This document shows, one piece after another, positions 1 through 6,940 of a DNA stretch of 56,551 nucleotides. Source of the DNA: Sphingomonas sp. 32-66-10 (GTDB lineage Bacteria > Pseudomonadota > Alphaproteobacteria > Sphingomonadales > Sphingomonadaceae); NCBI GenBank assembly GCA_002280565.1, contig NCEF01000023.1, positions 4,729 to 61,279 of the forward strand, read 5' to 3'. Made by a program: the position numbers and the translations under genes. The notes under the pieces were generated by a model. The model worked only from the letters and a program-made list of their open reading frames with translations. It did no database searches and was not told where the DNA came from. Positions within the stretch are counted from its first letter, which is position 1. The number at the start of each line of letters is the position of its first letter.

Positions 1-49
1 GCAGCCATGTGCGGCCCCTAGGCTCGTCTGACGATAGTGGAGAGCGTGG

Positions 50-916
50 ATGCTGAGATTGATCGGGCTGGGACTGGCAACGACGGTATTGGCGGCACCC
101 GCGCCCGCGCGACAGTCGCAACCGGCTGTGATGACCCAGCGCGACGTCGTCTATCGCACCACCGATACCGGGCCGCTGCACCTCGACCTCCACCGCCCAA
201 GCAGCGACAAGGGCAAGCGCGCACCGGTGCTCGTCGTCATCCATGGCGGGGCCTGGGCGCGGGGCGAGCGACCCAAGGGCTGGGCAGGCTATCGCCGCTT
301 CGTCGATGCCGGGTTCGCGGTGGTCAGCATGCAATATCGCCTGTCCGGACAGGCGCGCGCACCTGCGGCGGTCGAGGATGTCCGCTGCGTCATGGGCTGG
401 ATCGCACGCGCGGCGGAGCGCGAAGGGCTGGACCCGCGGCGGATCGTCCTGCTGGGCACATCGGCGGGCGCACATCTGGCGCTGATGGCGGCCTATGTCG
501 ACGCCAGCGAGGGCCTCGACCCGGCCGAATGCGGACCCGCGCCGCGCGCCGCTGCGGTGATCGACTTTTACGGCCCGACCGATCTGCGCCCGCAATCGCT
601 CGGCGCGTGGAACAGCCCCTCGATCGGCAAATGGGTCGGGGAAGGGGAGGCGGGCGCCGCCATGGCCGCCCGCATGTCGCCGATCGCCCGCGTCCGTCCG
701 GGCCTGCCCCCGGTCTTCATCGTCCATGGTGATGCCGACCCGGTGGTCCCGCTCGCCGCATCGACCGCGCTGAAAGCCGCGCTCGAACGGGCGACGGTGC
801 CGACCGAACTCCATGTCGTGCCGGGCGGGGTGCATGGAAAATTCGGTCCCGAGGTTCAGGACCGGCTGATGGCCGATGCAGTGACCTTCCTGAAGCGCCA
901 CCGCGTGATCGACTGA
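50..916 (+). CDS. Secreted alpha/beta hydrolase (BD-FAE/esterase-like)
   Basis: A 288-residue alpha/beta-hydrolase. Residues 1-20 form a hydrophobic Ala-rich signal peptide, so the enzyme should be periplasmic. The oxyanion-hole motif HGGAW lies at about 65-69, the nucleophile elbow GTSAG at 136-140 (Ser138), the likely acid in HGDADPVVP and the likely base in GGVHGK near the C-terminus. This order is typical of the carboxylesterase/kynurenine-formamidase-like branch, which hydrolyses ester or amide bonds; the substrate cannot be read from sequence. The ATG follows a purine-rich stretch and fits the signal peptide. The gene stands alone and converges on the leftward Psp cluster across a hairpin. 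Confidence 0.85.
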   Translation: MLRLIGLGLATTVLAAPAPARQSQPAVMTQRDVVYRTTDTGPLHLDLHRPSSDKGKRAPVLVVIHGGAWARGERPKGWAGYRRFVDAGFAVVSMQYRLSGQARAPAAVEDVRCVMGWIARAAEREGLDPRRIVLLGTSAGAHLALMAAYVDASEGLDPAECGPAPRAAAVIDFYGPTDLRPQSLGAWNSPSIGKWVGEGEAGAAMAARMSPIARVRPGLPPVFIVHGDADPVVPLAASTALKAALERATVPTELHVVPGGVHGKFGPEVQDRLMADAVTFLKRHRVID

Positions 917-929
917 GCCCCTAAAGGGG

Positions 930-959
930 TGGGAGCGGCGTCTGCAGCTGCCGCTCCCA
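930..959. terminator. Hairpin between convergent genes
   Basis: A perfect 10-bp inverted repeat (TGGGAGCGGC / GCCGCTCCCA) with a 10-base loop sits between the end of the hydrolase gene and the end of the leftward Psp cluster. A smaller CCCC-TAAA-GGGG hairpin lies just before it. There is no clear T-tract on either side, so a bidirectional terminator is an inference from position. Confidence 0.5.
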
Positions 960-1011
960 TGGTGCAGTGGCGGTGGCCTCCCAACCTGTCCGCCGCTGCT
1001 CCGGGGGCTCG

Positions 1012-1257
1012 TTAAAGGTCCACGCCTGCGGCGATCGCCTCAAGCTTGCGGATGCGTTCCTTCAGGTCCGCGATCTCGATCCGTGCGCCGGCATTGCCCT
1101 GCGCGGCGGAAGCCGTTTCGCCCGGGTGCACCAGCGACAGTTCCTGCCGCTTGAGTGCCAGCCAGCCGCGCCATCCGGCGAGGCCCGCTCCGGTCACCAT
1201 GCCAAGGCCAGCAAGGGTCGCCAGCGCCATGACCATGTAGAAATTGGGGTCGGTCAT
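1012..1257 (-). CDS. Small one-helix membrane protein, last gene of the Psp array
   Basis: An 81-residue protein with one N-terminal membrane helix (about residues 6-30), a basic WRGWLALKRQ segment and a C-terminal helix ADLKERIRKLEAIAAG. The helix matches the PspB-type motif L-x-x-R-I-x-x-L-E in the upstream paralogues, but the DREIERLR tail found in most of them is missing. A GTG lies one codon earlier (1260). I chose the ATG because GGAGGAGG sits 5 bases upstream of it. It is the most degraded or divergent member of the array. No function is known; a role in the envelope-stress membrane complex is inferred from position and shared motif. Confidence 0.75.
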   Translation of the reverse strand: MTDPNFYMVMALATLAGLGMVTGAGLAGWRGWLALKRQELSLVHPGETASAAQGNAGARIEIADLKERIRKLEAIAAGVDL

Positions 1258-1285
1258 CACATCCTCCTCCGGTTCTGACCGGACT

Positions 1286-1552
1286 TCAGTTGCGGTCGTC
1301 GCGCAGCTTCTCGATTTCGCGGTCGAGGCTGACGCTCGAATGATTGTCGGTGATCACCCGCTCCAGCACCGCGATACGGTCCTTCAGCGTGCGCACTTCC
1401 TGCTCCAGACGGCGGGCTTCGGCGCTCGCCGCGGGATCATGGGCGACATAATCGTTGCCGCGGCCATCCTTCTGGATGCCCATCTTGGCGCGGACGATGT
1501 TGCCGACGGTTACGATCGCTACGATCATCACCACCATGAACGCCCATTCCAT
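1286..1552 (-). CDS. PspB-like small membrane protein (paralogue)
   Basis: An 88-residue protein with an N-terminal membrane helix (about 3-20), a short polar linker and a long C-terminal coiled coil. The coiled coil contains LKDRIAVLERVITD followed by LDREIEKLRDD, nearly the same as in the paralogues at 1759-1990, 2001-2321 and 2338-2628. The first half matches the known E. coli PspB segment RERIQALESILD. AGGAGG lies 7 bases before the ATG. The gene is co-directional with the psp genes. It probably forms a membrane-anchored coiled coil that could pair with PspB or PspC; this is inference. Confidence 0.8.
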   Translation of the reverse strand: MEWAFMVVMIVAIVTVGNIVRAKMGIQKDGRGNDYVAHDPAASAEARRLEQEVRTLKDRIAVLERVITDNHSSVSLDREIEKLRDDRN

Positions 1553-1596
1553 ACCCTGCCTCCTGTTCGTGTAATCTTGTGTTGGCCCCTGGGGGC

Positions 1597-1728
1597 TTAT
1601 TCGGCCGGCTGAGCCGCCGCTTCGCGCGCCAATCGCTCGGCGCGGCGCGCGGGGCGGTCGCGCATCTCGGCCATCGTGACGCCGATCGCGCCAATGACGC
1701 CCAGCACCGCGAAAACTCCGATCAACAT
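1597..1728 (-). CDS. 43-residue single-helix membrane protein
   Basis: A short ORF in the Psp array that is easily missed. The product begins MLIGVFAVLGVIGAIGVTMA, a single hydrophobic helix, followed by a strongly charged Arg/Glu tail (EMRDRPARRAERLAREAAA) ending PAE. GGGAG lies about 8 bases before the ATG. Gene order, strand and spacing match the neighbouring paralogues, but the coiled-coil motif is absent. The SD, helix-plus-charged-tail design and position support a real gene. The function is unknown. Confidence 0.6.
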   Translation of the reverse strand: MLIGVFAVLGVIGAIGVTMAEMRDRPARRAERLAREAAAQPAE

Positions 1729-1758
1729 GGTAGATACTCCCTCACAAATTTCGTTGGT

Positions 1759-1990
1759 TCAGTTCACCGGCCGGTCGTCGCGCAGCCGTTCGATCTCGTC
1801 GGCCAGGTCGACACCCTTGTCGGTGACGATCCGCTCCAGCACCCGCACTCGCTGCTCCAATCGCTCTGTATGCGCCGCATATTGCGCGGCCTTCTCGGCG
1901 GTTTGTGCACTGAGCGCCGATTCCGGCGATCACCGGGATGCCGACCACGATGAAGAAGAAGCCGAGGATGAAGCTCTGCTTATCGCCCAT
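1759..1990 (-). pseudogene. Frameshifted PspB-like membrane protein
   Basis: Translation from the ATG at 1990 (GAGG 8 bases upstream) gives one membrane helix (MGDKQSFILGFFFIVVGIPV, then IAGI). The frame then turns into sequence with no family resemblance. Reading one base further on near 1918-1921, the rest becomes ALSAQTAEKAAQ..., then LEQRVRVLERIVTD and LADEIERLRDDRPVN and a TGA at 1759-1761, which is the family motif. Removing one G in the run GGAATCGGCG restores a protein of about 76 residues. It is therefore either a recent one-base insertion or a sequencing error. Confidence 0.75.
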
Positions 1991-2000
1991 CGTCCGGTCC

Positions 2001-2321
2001 TCAATTCTTGCCCAGCCGCAGCGCTTCGATCTCGCGATCCAGCGCGTGGCTGCTGTCGGTCACGATCCGCTCGACATTGGCGAGCCGGTCCTTGACCGAC
2101 CCCAGCTCGGCGCGGAGCTGGGCGTTTTCCTGGCTGATCAGCTTGATCCGCTCGATCATCTCTTCATTCTTCTGCGGATAGACCGCCTGGCCCCAGGCCC
2201 CGTCGAGCGGGTAGCCATTCTTGATGCGGAGCCAGGTGGTGAACATCCACCCGATCATCCCGGCCACGCCGACGATTGCGATCGTGGGGGCCAGCGCGCT
2301 GAAGAATTGTATCTTTTCCAT
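2001..2321 (-). CDS. PspB-like small membrane protein (paralogue)
   Basis: A 106-residue protein. An N-terminal membrane helix (about 8-30) is followed by LRIKNGYPLDGAW, which resembles IRAKHGYPIENEW in the adjacent paralogue. A coiled coil follows with VKDRLANVERIVTD and LDREIEALR. AAGGAA lies about 7 bases before the ATG. The shared juxtamembrane GYP segment makes this gene and the one at 2338-2628 a close pair, probably from tandem duplication. It is part of the leftward psp array. A role in binding PspA or PspC at the membrane is inferred. Confidence 0.8.
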   Translation of the reverse strand: MEKIQFFSALAPTIAIVGVAGMIGWMFTTWLRIKNGYPLDGAWGQAVYPQKNEEMIERIKLISQENAQLRAELGSVKDRLANVERIVTDSSHALDREIEALRLGKN

Positions 2322-2337
2322 GTTCTCGTTCCTTCGT

Positions 2338-2628
2338 TCAGCGCAGGCGGTCGATTTCGCGGGCGGTCCGCTCGGCGGGGTCGGTGGCGATGCGTTCGAG
2401 CACCGCGATCCGCTCCTCCAACCGGCTGATCTGCCCGGTCAGCCGCTCATTCTCGTTCGTCAGCAGCTCGATCTTGCGATCCGCCTGGGGGTTTTCCTTG
2501 GTGGTCGTCCCCATCCATTCATTTTCGATCGGGTATCCGTGCTTGGCGCGGATCCAGGTCGAAGCGAGCCAGCCAAAGGTCGTGATCGCGATGATGGCGA
2601 TGACGAAGCCCGGTCCACCCCAGTTCAT
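2338..2628 (-). CDS. PspB-like small membrane protein (paralogue)
   Basis: A 96-residue protein with one membrane helix (about 6-24), the juxtamembrane motif IRAKHGYPIENEW and a C-terminal coiled coil ending LEERIAVLERIATD then REIDRLR. The reading frame is open well upstream into pspC. The ATG at 2628 is preferred because the membrane helix begins right after it and GGGAG lies 7-8 bases before it. It immediately follows pspC on the same strand. The coiled-coil tail matches both PspB and the C-terminal extension of this PspC. Confidence 0.8.
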   Translation of the reverse strand: MNWGGPGFVIAIIAITTFGWLASTWIRAKHGYPIENEWMGTTTKENPQADRKIELLTNENERLTGQISRLEERIAVLERIATDPAERTAREIDRLR

Positions 2629-2659
2629 GTCCAGTCTCCCTGTTCGGATCGGCGCGCGC

Positions 2660-3037
2660 TCAGCGCAGGCGTTCGATCTCGTCGGCGAGCTGCGTGTTGC
2701 GGCTCGTGTAATAGGTCTCGATGTCGGCCATGCGGCGATCGATGTCGCGCAGCTTGGAGCGGACTTCCTGGGTCGAGCGGCGCGGATTGGCGCGCACGCC
2801 CTGCCAGAATTTTGCATCCTCGGCATTTTCGTAGAGGCCCATCGGCTTCTGCGACACGACCATGGCGAGGCCGATATAGACGAAGAACATCAGCGGGAAG
2901 GTCGCAAAGGTCAGGACCAGGAAGCCCAGGCGGATCCACAACGGGTCGACCCCGGTATAGTCGCCCAGTCCTTCACAGACGCCGAGCCATTTTCCGTTGA
3001 CCTTGTCGCGATACAGTTGGGTGCGGCTAGCGGACAT
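2660..3037 (-). CDS. pspC: Phage shock protein C (PspC-domain membrane protein)
   Basis: A 125-residue inner-membrane protein. The PspC domain covers about residues 6-65: LYRDKVNGKWLGVCEGLGDY, then DPLWIRLGFLV and a hydrophobic membrane segment. The C-terminal 50 residues are charged and end in RMADIETYYTSRNTQLADEI-ERLR, the same tail as in the small paralogues downstream. The known PspC role is to sense envelope stress with PspB and to recruit PspA. The start at 3037 is favoured over an upstream in-frame ATG because GGAGGA overlaps the end of pspB just before it. Confidence 0.9.
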   Translation of the reverse strand: MSASRTQLYRDKVNGKWLGVCEGLGDYTGVDPLWIRLGFLVLTFATFPLMFFVYIGLAMVVSQKPMGLYENAEDAKFWQGVRANPRRSTQEVRSKLRDIDRRMADIETYYTSRNTQLADEIERLR

Positions 3038-3038
3038 T

Positions 3039-3320
3039 TCAGTTCCTCCGTGCGCGTTCATAGTCGGGGAGTTCGCGGGCCGGCGGCGTGTCATTGCCGC
3101 GCAGGCGGAACTCGGGATTATCGGCGGCGATGATCCGCTCGATGGTGTGCAGGCGATCCTCCAGGCGACGCGCCGTATAGTGCAGCTCGTCCAGCAGGCT
3201 TTCGTCTTCGCCGGTCAGCGTCTTGGCCTGCTTCCACTTGGTGACATAGTGGAGGATGACCCAGGGCATGCCAATGAAGAGCATGCCGACGACGACGATC
3301 GGGACCAGGATATCTTCCAT
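3039..3320 (-). CDS. pspB: Phage shock protein B
   Basis: A 93-residue protein with an N-terminal membrane helix (about 4-24), then LHYVTKWKQAK and a coiled coil LEDRLHTIERIIAADNPEFR. This aligns well with the E. coli PspB pattern of one helix followed by R-x-R-I-x-x-L-E-x-I-L-D-A-E-H-P. PspB partners PspC in the membrane and relieves PspA inhibition of PspF under stress. It starts 3 bases after pspA, with AAGGGAG in the end of pspA as its SD, so the two are translationally close. Confidence 0.9.
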   Translation of the reverse strand: MEDILVPIVVVGMLFIGMPWVILHYVTKWKQAKTLTGEDESLLDELHYTARRLEDRLHTIERIIAADNPEFRLRGNDTPPARELPDYERARRN

Positions 3321-3323
3321 GGC

Positions 3324-3992
3324 TTAGCTCCCTTTGTTCAGACGCGCCTTGAGCGCGGCCAGCTCGGCATCGACCTTCTCGGCCGACTGGAGCTCGGCAA
3401 TCTCTTCCTCCAGCGACTTCTTCGGCGCGCCCAGCGCCAGCGCATCGGCGCGGCCCTCGGCAAAATCGACGCGACGCTCGAGCAGGTCGAAGCGGCTGAA
3501 CGCGTCGTTGACCTTCGACCCATGGGTCATCTCGCGCAGCTTGACGCGGTTATTGGCGCTTTCCAGGCGGGTCATGATCGCATTCTGGCGGGCACGGGCG
3601 TCGCGCAGCTTGGTCTGGAGCTTGGCGATATCCTCTTCCGACGCGCGCAGTGCATCGTCGAGCACCGCGATCTCGGCATTCAGCTGATCGCACATGTCAT
3701 ACGCCTTCTGACGTTCGACCAGGGCGGCTTTCGCCAGGTCCTCGCGGTCCTTGCTCAGCGCCAGCTCGGCCTTTTCGGTCCAGCTCATCTGGAGGTTTTC
3801 CAGCTTGGCGATGTGGCGGCGCATTTCCTTCTGGTCGGCGATGGTGCGGGCCGCGCTGGCGCGGACCTCGACCAGCGTCTCCTCCATTTCGAGGATGATC
3901 ATGCGGATCATCTTCGCCGGGTCTTCCGCCTTGTCGAGCAGGTCGGTGAAGTTGGCGGCGATGATGTCGCGGGTGCGAGAGAAAATGCCCAT
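3324..3992 (-). CDS. pspA: Phage shock protein A (membrane-stabilising ESCRT-III-like protein)
   Basis: A 222-residue PspA, the same length as the E. coli protein. The N-terminal amphipathic helix begins MGIFSRTRDIIAANFTDLLD, and the rest is almost wholly alpha-helical coiled coil (PspA/IM30 family). PspA oligomerises on stressed inner membrane and, when free, binds and inhibits PspF. AAGGAG lies about 10 bases before the ATG. It is the first large gene of the leftward cluster, behind the 48-residue ORF and the sigma54-type promoter. Confidence 0.95.
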   Translation of the reverse strand: MGIFSRTRDIIAANFTDLLDKAEDPAKMIRMIILEMEETLVEVRASAARTIADQKEMRRHIAKLENLQMSWTEKAELALSKDREDLAKAALVERQKAYDMCDQLNAEIAVLDDALRASEEDIAKLQTKLRDARARQNAIMTRLESANNRVKLREMTHGSKVNDAFSRFDLLERRVDFAEGRADALALGAPKKSLEEEIAELQSAEKVDAELAALKARLNKGS

Positions 3993-4019
3993 CTGAACTT
4001 AGCTCCTTGGAAACTCGTG

Positions 4020-4053
4020 CCGCCGGGCGGACTAGGGGGTGCCCGCCCGGCGG
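4020..4053. promoter_or_regulatory. Stem-loop between the small ORF and pspA
   Basis: A perfect 11-bp inverted repeat, CCGCCGGGCGG / CCGCCCGGCGG, with a 12-base loop lies between the stop of the 48-residue ORF (4060) and the start of pspA (3992). No T-tract follows it on the minus strand. In an mRNA started at the promoter near 4270 it would separate the small ORF from pspA. It could be a partial terminator, a processing site or an mRNA-stability hairpin. The structure is seen; the role is inferred. Confidence 0.5.
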
Positions 4054-4059
4054 GATCGC

Positions 4060-4206
4060 TTACGCGATGGCTCGGGTGGAAACCGCGACCCCATCCGTCG
4101 CCGTGACGGCGGGGCCGGCCACGGTTGCCAGGCTGGTGGTGCTGACGATCAGGGTGCAGACCAGCGCCGCCAGCGTCGTGCGAAAGCTGTTGTGGCCCTT
4201 ATACAT
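4060..4206 (-). CDS. 48-residue exported or membrane protein heading the psp transcript
   Basis: A short ORF between pspA and pspF. The product begins MYKGHNSFRTTLAALVCTL, with a basic N-terminus and a hydrophobic helix to about residue 30, then a Thr/Ala/Val-rich tail ending STRAIA. This looks like a signal peptide or single anchor with a very short remainder. GAGGGA lies 8 bases before the ATG; an in-frame ATG three codons earlier abuts that SD and is less likely. It lies directly downstream of the sigma54-like promoter, so it would be the first gene of the psp transcript. I recognise no family. Confidence 0.65.
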   Translation of the reverse strand: MYKGHNSFRTTLAALVCTLIVSTTSLATVAGPAVTATDGVAVSTRAIA

Positions 4207-4265
4207 TGTTTCCATCCCTCAATTTCTTCGTGTCGTTGCCGCCCTTCGCGGCATGCCAGGCACAT

Positions 4266-4281
4266 TGCACGGGGCGTGCCA
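4266..4281 (-). promoter_or_regulatory. Sigma54-type (-24/-12) promoter for the psp cluster
   Basis: Read on the minus strand, TGGCACG-CCCC-GTGCA matches the sigma54 consensus TGGCACG-N4-TTGCA, with the invariant GG and GC exactly 10 bases apart. Transcription would start near 4255 and run into the 48-residue ORF and pspA. PspF is a sigma54 activator, and E. coli pspA is also sigma54-dependent, so motif and context agree. Confidence 0.85.
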
Positions 4282-4355
4282 AATCGGTTTAGCCGCAGTT
4301 TTCCGCCATTTTCAGCCCAGACGGGGACGTGGTCGAAACTTCGCACTTGCCAAAA

Positions 4356-4374
4356 CTTGGGAAAATATCCCAAG
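4356..4374. promoter_or_regulatory. Palindrome, likely PspF binding site
   Basis: CTTGGGAAAATATCCCAAG is a perfect 7-bp inverted repeat with a 5-base AT spacer. It lies about 110 bases upstream of the predicted psp start point and 8 bases before the pspF ATG. Sigma54 activators bind at that distance, and in E. coli the PspF sites likewise overlap the pspF promoter and cause autorepression. The assignment is inference from position and symmetry. Confidence 0.65.
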
Positions 4375-4382
4375 AGTTCGGC

Positions 4383-5417
4383 ATGGAGCGCACCACCCAT
4401 GTCGTCGGCCAATCGGGCGCCTTTCTCGACGCGCTCGAACTTGCCTCGCGCGCGGCGGCGCTGGACCGTCCGGTGCTGGTGATCGGGGAGCGCGGGACCG
4501 GCAAGGAACTGGTCGCCGAGCGCCTCCACCGCCTGTCCCCGCGCTGGGATCAGCCGTTGGTCGTGATGAACTGCGCTGCGCTGCCGGAAACGCTGATCGA
4601 GGCCGAACTGTTCGGGCATGAGGCGGGATCGTTCACCGGCGCGACCAAGGGCCGGCCCGGGCGGTTTGAGGAGGCCGATGGCGGCACCCTGTTCCTCGAC
4701 GAGCTCGGCACGCTCAGCATGGCGGCGCAGGATCGCCTGCTGCGTGCGGTCGAATATGGCGAGATCACCCGGATCGGATCGTCACGCCCGATGCGCGTCG
4801 ATGTCCGCATCGTCGCCGCGACCAATGAGGATCTGCCCGATCGCGTCGAGAAGGGGACCTTCCGCGCCGACCTGCTCGACCGGTTAAGTTTCGAAGTGGT
4901 GACGCTGCCGCCATTGCGCGCCCGCGCTGGCGATGTGCTGGTGCTTGCGGAGTTTTTCGGGCGGCGCATGGCGGCGGAACTGGGGCTGGAATGGCAGGGC
5001 TTTGGCCCGACCGCGCTCGATGCACTGACAACGCATAGCTGGCCGGGCAATGTGCGCGAGTTGCGCAATGTCGTTGAGCGTTCGGTGTATCGCTGGGACC
5101 GGTCGGGCCCCGTGGACGCGATCCAGATCGACCCCTTTGCCTCACCCTATCGCCCCAGGCCGATGCCGCACAGCATCCCCGGCAACGCCGCGCCGGTTCA
5201 GTTGACGACGGAAGAACCCGGCCCGCTGCCGCGCGGCGAGGACGACCTGTCCGGCGACTTCAAGAGCCGTGTCAGCCGCTTCGAACGCGAACTGCTCAGC
5301 CGCGCGCTTTCGGAAAACCGTTTCAACCAGCGCGCAACCGCCGAAGCGCTGGGCCTCAGCTACGACCAGCTCCGTCACGCGCTCAAGCGCCACGACCTGC
5401 TCAACGCGGGCGGCTGA
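4383..5417 (+). CDS. pspF: Psp operon sigma54 activator PspF
   Basis: A 344-residue bacterial enhancer-binding protein without an N-terminal sensory domain, as in known PspF. The AAA+ domain starts almost at once, with Walker A GERGTGKE, the sigma54-contact loop GSFTGA (GAFTGA in E. coli PspF), Walker B GGTLFLDEL and sensor motifs. The C-terminus carries a Fis-type HTH, FNQRATAEALGLSYDQLRHA. PspF drives psp transcription and is inhibited by PspA. An in-frame ATG lies 18 codons upstream. The start at 4383 is chosen because the homologous N-terminus begins here and AAGAG precedes it. It is divergent from the psp cluster. Confidence 0.93.
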   Translation: MERTTHVVGQSGAFLDALELASRAAALDRPVLVIGERGTGKELVAERLHRLSPRWDQPLVVMNCAALPETLIEAELFGHEAGSFTGATKGRPGRFEEADGGTLFLDELGTLSMAAQDRLLRAVEYGEITRIGSSRPMRVDVRIVAATNEDLPDRVEKGTFRADLLDRLSFEVVTLPPLRARAGDVLVLAEFFGRRMAAELGLEWQGFGPTALDALTTHSWPGNVRELRNVVERSVYRWDRSGPVDAIQIDPFASPYRPRPMPHSIPGNAAPVQLTTEEPGPLPRGEDDLSGDFKSRVSRFERELLSRALSENRFNQRATAEALGLSYDQLRHALKRHDLLNAGG

Positions 5418-5512
5418 TCGCCCCACTCGATCCTGCCCGCAGAAAAATTTGTGCGGCATTCATGGGCGTCATGCGTTAGGCGGTCGCGAACCAAAAAACG
5501 GAGGGACATCCC

Positions 5513-6130
5513 ATGGCGTTCGAACTTCCCACGCTCCCCTATGCCAAGGACGCGCTCGCGCCGACGATCTCGGCCGAAACGCTCGAATTCCACTATGGCA
5601 AGCATCACAAGGCCTATGTCGACAAGACCAATGGGTTCGTCGCGGACAAGGGGCTCGAAGGCAAGTCGCTGGTCGAGGTGATCAAGCATGCCAAGGAAAC
5701 CGGCGACAAGGGCCTGTTCAACAACAGCGCACAGATCTGGAACCACAGCTTCTACTGGTTCGGCCTGACGCCGGAAGCCAAGGAGCCGACCGGCAAGCTC
5801 GCCGAGCTGATCGAAGCCAAGTTCGGTTCGAAGGAAGAGCTGGTCAAGCAGCTGATCGCCGAATCCACCGCGCATTTCTCCAACGGCTGGGGCTGGCTGG
5901 TGCTCGACGGCGACGAGATCAAGGTGACGTCGCTTCACGACGCCGATACGCCTGTGGTCTATGACTATAAGCCGCTGCTGACGATCGATGTGTGGGAACA
6001 CGCCTATTACATCGACTATCGCAACGCGCGCCCGGGCTATCTCGAAGCGATCACCAAGATCATCGACTGGGACTTCGTTGCCGCCAATCTCGACGGCGAA
6101 GGCGTCAGCCGCGCCGACCAGGCCGGCTGA
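5513..6130 (+). CDS. sodB: Superoxide dismutase, iron type
   Basis: A 205-residue Fe/Mn superoxide dismutase. Metal ligands are visible as His27, His78 (QIWNHSFYW), Asp159 and His163 (DVWEHAYYIDYRN). Gln74 in FNNSAQ sits in the N-terminal domain, the arrangement typical of the iron form. The enzyme converts superoxide to oxygen and hydrogen peroxide in the cytoplasm. GGAGGGAC lies just before the ATG. The gene is monocistronic, with a strong hairpin terminator right after it. Confidence 0.95.
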   Translation: MAFELPTLPYAKDALAPTISAETLEFHYGKHHKAYVDKTNGFVADKGLEGKSLVEVIKHAKETGDKGLFNNSAQIWNHSFYWFGLTPEAKEPTGKLAELIEAKFGSKEELVKQLIAESTAHFSNGWGWLVLDGDEIKVTSLHDADTPVVYDYKPLLTIDVWEHAYYIDYRNARPGYLEAITKIIDWDFVAANLDGEGVSRADQAG

Positions 6131-6155
6131 TCCAGCGGATCATCGATTGAAGAAG

Positions 6156-6188
6156 CGGGTCGGGGGAAACCTCGGCCCGTTTTGGTTT
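6156..6188 (+). terminator. sodB intrinsic terminator
   Basis: CGGGTCGGGG and CCTCGGCCCG form a 10-bp stem (two G-T wobbles) closed by a GAAA tetraloop, followed by TTTTGGTTT. This is a standard rho-independent terminator 26 bases after the sodB stop. Confidence 0.85.
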
Positions 6189-6207
6189 CAGGTAGTTCGA
6201 ACTCTTT

Positions 6208-6293
6208 CGTCGTCCCGGGCTTGACCCGGGACAGGGCGTCTTCAGCGTGTTCAGGAAAGGCAGCCCGGCCCCGGATCAGGTCCGGGGCGACGA
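6208..6293. repeat. Dispersed double-hairpin repeat, copy A
   Basis: Two GC-rich palindromic arms (TCGTCCCGGGCTTGACCCGG and the complementary GGATCAGGTCCGGGGCGACG) flank about 30 bases. Each arm folds alone and the two can pair. The same design recurs at 17892, 28955 and 36781. This copy fills the convergent gap between sodB and yciB. Confidence 0.75.
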
Positions 6294-6298
6294 ACGGG

Positions 6299-6940
6299 TC
6301 ACTGCTCCGGCGGCAGCGCCTTGTCGACGATCTCGCCATCGGTCTTCAGCCCATGGCGCAGCAGCAGCGGCACATTGCCGATCGCGAACAGCAACGTCAG
6401 CGGCACCACGCCCCACAGTTTGAACGCGACCCAGAAATCCCAGCTCTGCGTGCGCCAGACGATTTCGTTGAGCACCGCCATCACGACGAAGAACGCCGCC
6501 CAGTTGACCGTCAGCAACTGCCATCCGCGCGCGGTCAACCCGGGATAAGCGCTCTCGAGCAGCATCTGCAGCAGCGGCTTTTTGGTGATCAGGCCATAGA
6601 TGAGCACGATCGCGAACATCGAATAGACGAGCGTCGGCTTGACCTTGATGAACGTGTCGTTGTGGAACCACAGGGTCAGCCCGCCGAACACCAGCACCAG
6701 CACCCCCGAAATCCACAGCATCGGGGAGATATGCCGCGTCTTCCACAGCGACAGCCCCATGGCGAGGAAGATCGCGACCATGAACGCCGCCGTCGCCGCG
6801 AGCATCCGCGTCAGCTGCGGCCCGCCCATGAAGCTGTTCACGGCAAAGAACATCGCCAGCGGACCGAAATCGATCAGCATGCGCAGGCCGGGGGAGGGGG
6901 CGGGTTTGCCCGAGCTCTGGGGCGTCGTGGATTCGGTCAT
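6299..6940 (-). CDS. yciB: Inner-membrane septation protein A family (YciB/IspZ)
   Basis: A 213-residue integral membrane protein. The N-terminus RMLIDFGPLAMFFAVNSFMG is followed by several hydrophobic helices and the family segment FWVAFKLWGVVPLTLLFAIG. YciB/IspZ proteins are about 180-210 residues and are linked to cell envelope and septation; the biochemical function is not settled. It is third in a leftward mtaB-ftsY-yciB order, 55 bases after ftsY, probably one transcript. Confidence 0.9.
   Translation of the reverse strand: MTESTTPQSSGKPAPSPGLRMLIDFGPLAMFFAVNSFMGGPQLTRMLAATAAFMVAIFLAMGLSLWKTRHISPMLWISGVLVLVFGGLTLWFHNDTFIKVKPTLVYSMFAIVLIYGLITKKPLLQMLLESAYPGLTARGWQLLTVNWAAFFVVMAVLNEIVWRTQSWDFWVAFKLWGVVPLTLLFAIGNVPLLLRHGLKTDGEIVDKALPPEQ

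Follow-up and report, generated by a model that had tools for sequence, protein, structure and literature searches.

An array of small membrane proteins with PspC/PspB-type tails behind pspABC in Sphingomonadaceae: possible adaptors for PspA

How PspA is recruited to damaged membranes, and how this is switched by PspB and PspC, is still an open question. The paper cited below as PMC11237479 we take to be Ravi et al. 2024. In Escherichia coli, PspC40-119, which comprises one membrane helix and the C-terminal part, interacts with PspA, an interaction lost in leucine-zipper mutants (PMC3068692), and in the on state PspC of Yersinia binds PspA through its C-terminal domain, thereby freeing PspF (PMC5596341). 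Here we describe a psp locus in a 56.5-kb stretch of the Sphingomonas sp. 32-66-10 genome (contig NCEF01000023.1; hereafter the window), from an assembly of 2.68 Mb in 83 contigs that is 83% complete, in which pspA, pspB and pspC are followed by six small genes, S1 to S6. An earlier note on this DNA had described an expanded psp cluster with the spacing of one operon, and this layout stands, with gaps of 16–44 nucleotides (nt) preceding S1, S2, S4, S5 and S6; its gene list (pspABC and six small genes) is correct as well, except that it overlooked a mini open reading frame (ORF), S0, upstream of pspA. Across sphingomonad loci a helix-plus-tail module has been multiplied, reaching six copies per locus in addition to PspB and PspC, the tail being kept and the helix varied. 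The S proteins share the architecture of PspC40-119 without the N-terminal domain of PspC and are therefore read as adaptors docking PspA, that is, as copies, multiplied in this lineage, of the unit by which PspC and PspB would dock PspA at the membrane, a reading for which the sequences make about an even case.

The tail and its membrane helices

A tail of the PspB/PspC type ends five of the small proteins (S1, S2, S3, S5 and S6), S4 being without it. Four motif-sharing proteins had been counted before, one of them frameshifted: the frameshift is found in S3, the count is now five, with a shortened tail in S6, and the motif, described as opening with L, has V at the first position in S2. The six frames of the window contain 757 open stretches with a minimum length of 40 amino acids (aa), among which a regular expression for the tail has seven matches, all in the psp operon (PspB, PspC, S1, S2, S3, S5 and S6); it was written from the matched proteins themselves, and therefore the absence of further matches is its informative part. 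A joint profile of S1, S2, S3 and S5 (hereafter the S1/2/3/5 profile) has four matches at E <= 1e-3 in the 2.68-Mb genome, all within 1.35 kb (contig C50).

Compared by hhalign, the S1/2/3/5 profile matches sphingomonad PspC with an E-value of 1e-7 over PspC residues 51-125, so that homology to the C-terminal part of PspC is found for both its second membrane helix and its tail; S6 is matched at 9.7e-7 and PspB at 5.4e-6, the latter in the tail only. Reversed profiles gave E-values of 0.038 (S6), 0.0051 (PspB) and 0.013 (PspC), the best of 20 column-shuffled controls each reached 0.023, 0.0021 and 0.038, respectively, and PspA, another coiled coil, 0.089. By these comparisons the S tail is closest to the PspC C-terminus and less close to PspB. 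The earlier proposal that the first half of the motif is that of PspB needs amending to this extent. Among individual members, weak matches at E <= 0.01 are found to the PspC model in 30 of 57 and to the PspB model in 16 of 57, the best E-values being 1.3e-4 (TIGR02978) and 4.1e-5 (TIGR02976). The S6 tail does not align when S6 is compared directly with PspB (E 0.18), and the PspC and PspB profiles themselves match weakly (E 0.0019). Plain membership in the PspB family was rejected, the best scores among S1-S6 being 12.6 against a cut-off of 25.6 bits for PF06667 and 18.8 against 51.7 bits for TIGR02976, both from S5. The PspC domain PF04024 has no match in S1-S6, nor does it appear in the family lists of 57 members (A1) and 15 members (A2), and the S1/2/3/5 profile has no relative of solved structure at E <= 0.01.

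The same controls, far weaker than the matches themselves, led us to reject the view that these are general coiled-coil membrane proteins, convergent with PspB and PspC and gathered in the operon by chance. Coiled coils do match many Pfam models weakly (20 families at E <= 0.01 over the 57 members) and solitary copies away from psp exist, but S genes are found in 76 of 77 usable loci, they have no match in nine family genomes without pspA, and their ratios of nonsynonymous to synonymous substitution rates (dN/dS) are well below 1 (all described below), which makes such a convergence scarcely credible.

Along the S proteins, mean pairwise identity over the last 32 residues is 0.82, 0.76, 0.76, 0.68 and 0.78 for S1, S2, S3, S5 and S6, against 0.47, 0.37, 0.34, 0.49 and 0.51 over the first 30, which bears out the idea, already put forward from the window, of a common PspB/PspC tail on varied membrane helices (for identities and dN/dS, sequences scoring <30 or shorter than 35 aa were dropped and only pairs with dS 0.2-1.5 were used). 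The last 32 residues of PspC have a mean identity of 0.82. PspB, with 0.60 in the first 30 residues, 0.68 in the middle and 0.52 in the last 32, is no clean control for this contrast because its last 32 residues lie past its coiled coil. Lysine plus arginine counts are higher after the helix than before it in 76/76 S1, 52/54 S2, 57/58 S3, 62/62 S5 and 77/77 S6 proteins, and the tail is therefore predicted to be cytoplasmic. Hydropathy and this charge bias together give the PspB-type layout of a single N-terminal membrane helix and a cytoplasmic C-terminal coiled coil. AlphaFold2 models, which have low predicted TM-scores (pTM) and were used for helix limits only, place helices at 2-35 and 53-104 in S2 (pTM 0.33) and at 5-44 and 57-77 in S6 (pTM 0.42). 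A separate observation concerns PspC itself: between the window and locus L037 its tails are nearly identical and its membrane parts very different (65% identity overall), as if the two halves evolved or recombined separately.

The S proteins could also be, as the earlier note chiefly supposed, extra PspB-like subunits, pairing through helices and tails with PspC or PspB to act as alternative sensors for different stresses. Their tail is homologous to that of PspB and their membrane helices are divergent, E. coli PspB and PspC make contact in the membrane region (PMC3068692), and S genes always occur with pspB and pspC in the 77 usable loci, which were chosen by pspA; yet the conserved part is the tail and not the helix, and S3 and S5 are kept in two PspB-less genomes, in one of which PspC has no tail either. 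We hold this to be possible and rather improbable. Less probable still, and in our view unlikely, is that they are effectors acting on the membrane themselves in the manner of PspG, with a tail serving only for self-assembly. This would suit their small size, their place at the operon end and the tail-less S4, and E. coli PspG is a small membrane effector dispensable for psp induction (PMC3068692), but what has been conserved is the very part common to PspB and PspC, and the S genes vanish with pspA, though the loss of an effector belonging to that regulon might follow the same pattern.

Median dN/dS is 0.36-0.49 for S1 to S6 (the value for S4 resting on 11 sequences and 47 pairs), compared with 0.375 for pspB, 0.32 for pspC and 0.20 for pspA, and S1-S6 therefore behave as real genes. 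A tree built from 125 tail proteins, with types assigned by best profile, shows the types clustered (10 changes vs 70.8 in shuffles), and an origin in one clade is not rejected for S1, S2 and S3; 59 of its 122 inner branches are open, and the tree supports the clustering of types, not their branching order. Decaying duplication debris could be suspected from the frameshifted S3 of the window, the patchy S4 and a number of tail-bearing copies that goes from 0 to 6 per locus. With dN/dS near that of pspB, S3 intact in relatives and paralogues that cluster by type across genera, such debris is very improbable.

Distribution within and beyond Sphingomonadaceae

The earlier note had proposed checking its reading by profile searches and gene order around pspA in sphingomonads. 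We took the window plus the best 80 of at least 515 pspA relatives in named genomes, a set chosen by pspA similarity and biased to close kin, and set aside four of these 81 loci with less than 3200 nt from the pspA start (L059, L061, L096 and L104). S genes are present in 76 of the 77 usable loci, with tail-bearing S genes numbering none in 1 locus, one in 2, two in 2, three in 7, four in 36, five in 24 and six in 5. There are 23 arrangements, differing by gene presence and tandem copies; S6 is found in 76/77 loci and is the final array gene in all 76. No S match lies on the opposite strand in the 81 regions. The family models behind these counts were built from the same loci; the window proteins alone, used as queries, find relatives of S1 in 78, of S5 in 77 and of S6 in 77 of the 81 regions. 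In an order-wide sample of 147 genomes (64 Sphingomonadaceae and 83 order-mates), the S1/2/3/5 profile matches 64/64 Sphingomonadaceae with 1-8 matches each, pspA is present in all 64 and S6 matches 62. Searching with the single S2 protein, 38 of 41 genus genomes were positive (misses in G005, G007 and G019).

Within the family, genomes that depart from this pattern bear on whether S genes go with pspA or with PspB. PspB has no match at E <= 1e-4 in 12 of 297 family genomes, nine of which are also without matches to pspA, S1/2/3/5 and S6. In G092 and G185, also among the 12, pspA is present and S3 and S5 are kept although PspB is lacking; in G092 (L122) the PspC gene stops cleanly before the tail, leaving S3 and S5 as the only tail carriers. 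G467, again with no PspB match, has S genes starting 548 nt from the contig start; its pspABC probably lies beyond the contig edge, and it was not counted as evidence. A second locus of the order pspA2-pspC2-S6 is found in G151 (L117), G133 (L118) and G174 (L119), S6 being absent from the main array of such second-locus genomes where this was read (L116, L120), and in G142, G159 and G180 S6 lies, by coordinates, at most 0.5 kb behind a second pspA. This presence pattern of pspA losses, PspB-less genomes and second loci, the positive side of which is given by the 64 family genomes, the 41 genus genomes (38 positive) and the 77 loci, indicates that in Sphingomonadaceae it is pspA, and not PspB, that S genes accompany. 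The retention of S genes in the two genomes that lack PspB, together with their absence from the nine that lack pspA, favours PspA anchors over extra PspB/PspC sensors; the earlier note had left both open, and of its two options the sensors keep only the minor probability given above.

The nine genomes without pspA (G434, G449, G464, G471, G480, G503, G516, G558 and G589) are at least 96% complete and have no match to pspB either (pspC was not searched); by these searches they are possibly psp-free lineages.

Among the 83 order-mates outside the family, the S1/2/3/5 profile matches 58, with one match in 49 and two in 9; their positions are mostly not listed, and lone genes or PspC tails may account for many of them. 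It matches 9 of 237 other class members, only G366 below 1e-10. S6, with three weak matches in the 83 order-mates and 0/237 in class genomes outside the family, is by this count nearly restricted to Sphingomonadaceae. Eleven psp loci of order-mates were read: six are plain pspABC (L129, L130, L131, L133, L134 and L135), in four (L124, L127, L128 and L169) pspABC is accompanied by one S-like gene and a short gene with a PspC domain, and L132 has an additional short PspC gene.

Lone S-like genes were also seen: two order-mates have one immediately following a sigma-70/rpoD-type gene (L125:1878-2165 and L126:1908-2192), and one stands alone in L168, while G366, a class member outside the order, carries a tandem pair of S5-like genes behind dut-coaBC (L158:2730-3224), about 80 kb from its pspB. 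The prevalence of homologues away from psp genes, named beforehand as an observation that would speak against a Psp role, is not seen inside Sphingomonadaceae and is seen for some of these outside relatives.

Promoter-like site, S0 and gene layout

Scored against what we take to be the sigma-54 consensus, a site reaching 10/11 lies within 500 nt upstream of pspA in 73 of 81 loci, compared with 12 of 1620 mononucleotide shuffles, and no sigma-54-type site scoring at least 10 lies between pspA +660 and +3000 in any of the 81 loci. Median gaps preceding S1-S6 across loci are 11-40 nt. Small gaps and the lack of an internal sigma-54-type site suggest that the whole array would be one transcript.

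Between this site and pspA, a hydrophobic ORF of 30-90 aa starting with ATG is found in 67 of the 70 loci whose site lies at least 150 nt upstream; reverse-strand controls gave 14/70 and shuffles a mean of 0.8/70. This is S0, the first ORF downstream of the sigma-54-type site, with a median of 48 aa, nearly all signal peptide, and mostly ending in a hydrophobic residue plus A. Its median dN/dS is 1.02, with 48% of pairs below 1, and despite the strong presence pattern its coding is therefore unproven. Zymomonas mobilis, a relative of the sphingomonads, has a gene that may be compared with it. ZMO1062 (hypothetical/pspD) rises on xylose together with ZMO1063-1065 (PMC8645129), appears next to pspA in a temperature comparison (PMC8237431) and has been proposed as part of the psp regulon (PMC3495753); judged by locus-tag order it would precede pspA, like S0.

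The cluster in the window runs on the minus strand in the order sigma-54-type site, S0, pspA, pspB, pspC, S1, S2, S3, S4, S5 and S6, with pspF divergent (Table 1). With TIGR02974, TIGR02977, TIGR02976 and TIGR02978 all over their cut-offs and the promoter-like site in place, it has the marks of a classical Psp operon. The nearest named relatives of its pspA, among the matches listed, belong to Sphingomonas tagetis (95%) and an uncultured Sphingomonadales bacterium (94%). S1-S6 (S3 tested as its C-terminal piece) stay under the cut-offs of all Pfam and NCBIfam models. The break in S3 may be a real mutation or an assembly error, the window sequence being compatible with both. No Rfam family is found within window positions 1-6500, a scan for sigma-70 promoters found none, and a terminator scan found 3 vs 2.9 expected.

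Table 1. Features of the psp locus, in window coordinates
Feature	Position	Strand	Remarks
pspF	4329..5417	+	divergent sigma-54 activator; TIGR02974 468.5 bits, over cut-off
sigma-54-type promoter-like site TGGCACG-N4-GTGCA	4266..4281	-	289 nt before pspA ATG; 10/11 consensus positions
S0 mini-ORF, 51 aa, signal-peptide-like	4060..4215	-	between promoter-like site and pspA; coding unproven
pspA	3324..3992	-	TIGR02977 279.6 bits, over cut-off
pspB	3039..3320	-	PF06667 93.6 bits, TIGR02976 79.1 bits, over cut-offs
pspC with C-terminal tail	2660..3037	-	TIGR02978 113.5 bits, PF04024 60.6 bits, over cut-offs
S1, 96 aa, membrane helix and PspC/PspB-type tail	2338..2628	-	tail LEERIAVLERIATD...REIDRLR
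S2, 106 aa, membrane helix and tail	2001..2321	-	TIGR02978 tail region 20.6 bits, under cut-off 104
S3, membrane helix and tail	about 1759..1990	-	frame broken in window; intact in L037 and L007 (genome G025)
S4, 43-aa membrane mini-protein, no tail	1597..1728	-	matches in 22/81 regions at E <= 1e-3
S5, 88 aa, membrane helix and tail	1286..1552	-	TIGR02976 18.8 bits, under cut-off 51.7
S6, membrane helix and shortened tail ending LKERIRKLEAIAAGVDL	1012..1257	-	last gene of array

Possible working and comparison with known systems

If the S proteins are PspA-docking adaptors, the locus could work as follows. Each of S1, S2, S3, S5 and S6, with one membrane helix and a predicted cytoplasmic helical tail like the PspC C-terminus, would resemble natural PspC40-119. 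Stress would free PspF, the single sigma-54-type promoter would drive the entire operon, and the S proteins would be made alongside PspA; their tails would hold PspA at the membrane and keep it off PspF, a positive feedback, while the differing helices would provide several kinds of anchor, placing PspA in different membrane settings. The single transcript, PspA binding, the feedback and the different membrane targeting are steps that we infer. A wider proposal, which we make tentatively and with more doubt than belief, is that PspA docking has been uncoupled from stress sensing in Sphingomonadaceae: the PspA-binding half of PspC would have given rise to stand-alone single-helix adaptors, each with its own helix, which would spread one ESCRT-III-like pool of PspA over several membrane sites, held off PspF by a self-amplifying feedback. 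In lineages like G092 these adaptors would fully replace PspB and the PspC tail, and S0 may report export or membrane state. As a naturally varied set, the array could serve to tell sensing, docking and membrane placement apart, and a tail by itself is predicted to dock PspA.

Several observations weigh against the adaptor reading. The nine pspA-less genomes are not independent, since of their five genus codes one accounts for four genomes and a second for two, and both PspB-less genomes that keep S genes are also without S6. Locus L102 carries pspABC without any S gene within 12.7 kb, outside the family S-like genes sit away from psp, and the order-mates G145 and G152 (67% and 62% complete) match the S profile but show no match to pspA. 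Linker conservation in S2 (0.75) equals that of the tail. The position of the enterobacterial PspC C-terminus is disputed: PMC3068692 assigns it a periplasmic location while considering a flip possible, and according to the same paper Gueguen et al. regarded it as a receiver of the signal. Against the E. coli proteins, the S profile has a marginal match to PspB (15 bits, E 0.0074) and an insignificant one to PspC (4.9 bits, E 10). Given these weak matches, extending the enterobacterial PspA contact to the S tail needs sphingomonad PspB and PspC as a bridge; these score 38.6 and 40.4 bits against their E. coli counterparts, and in PspC the matching stretch is residues 9-71, with the tail excluded. 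No report was found on what any S protein binds, on its expression or on a phenotype.

The earlier note knew of no such array, and the open-access literature has no description of it among the matches listed (subscription journals being mostly outside this scope); the part consulted of the survey PMC9239133 contains nothing like it. PspB duplicates in psp operons had nevertheless been noted, in one line of PMC11237479 with AOL22920.1 as the example, along with divergent PspB domains fused to the PspC C-terminus; what was seen of that paper describes neither an array nor S6, a mini-ORF, a distribution over lineages or a pattern of presence.

Among known proteins, PspC (TIGR02978/PF04024) aligns with the S proteins through its second membrane helix and tail, and differs in that they are without PF04024 and that those of the window fall far short of the 104-bit cut-off of TIGR02978, S2 scoring 20.6. 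PspB (PF06667/TIGR02976) has in common with them one membrane helix, basic residues after the helix and a coiled-coil tail, but the tails of S1, S2, S3 and S5 continue into a (D/R)EI(E/D)xLR end that PspB of the window does not have. ZMO1061-1065 of Z. mobilis are a likeness as stress-responsive psp genes (PMC3495753, PMC8645129, PMC8237431). The classical E. coli pspF-pspABC(DE) operon shares the divergent pspF, the sigma-54-type site and the order pspA-pspB-pspC, and carries pspD and pspE behind pspC in place of a tail-bearing array, so that against the five E. coli psp genes pspA-pspE the sphingomonad psp operon can hold ten ORFs.

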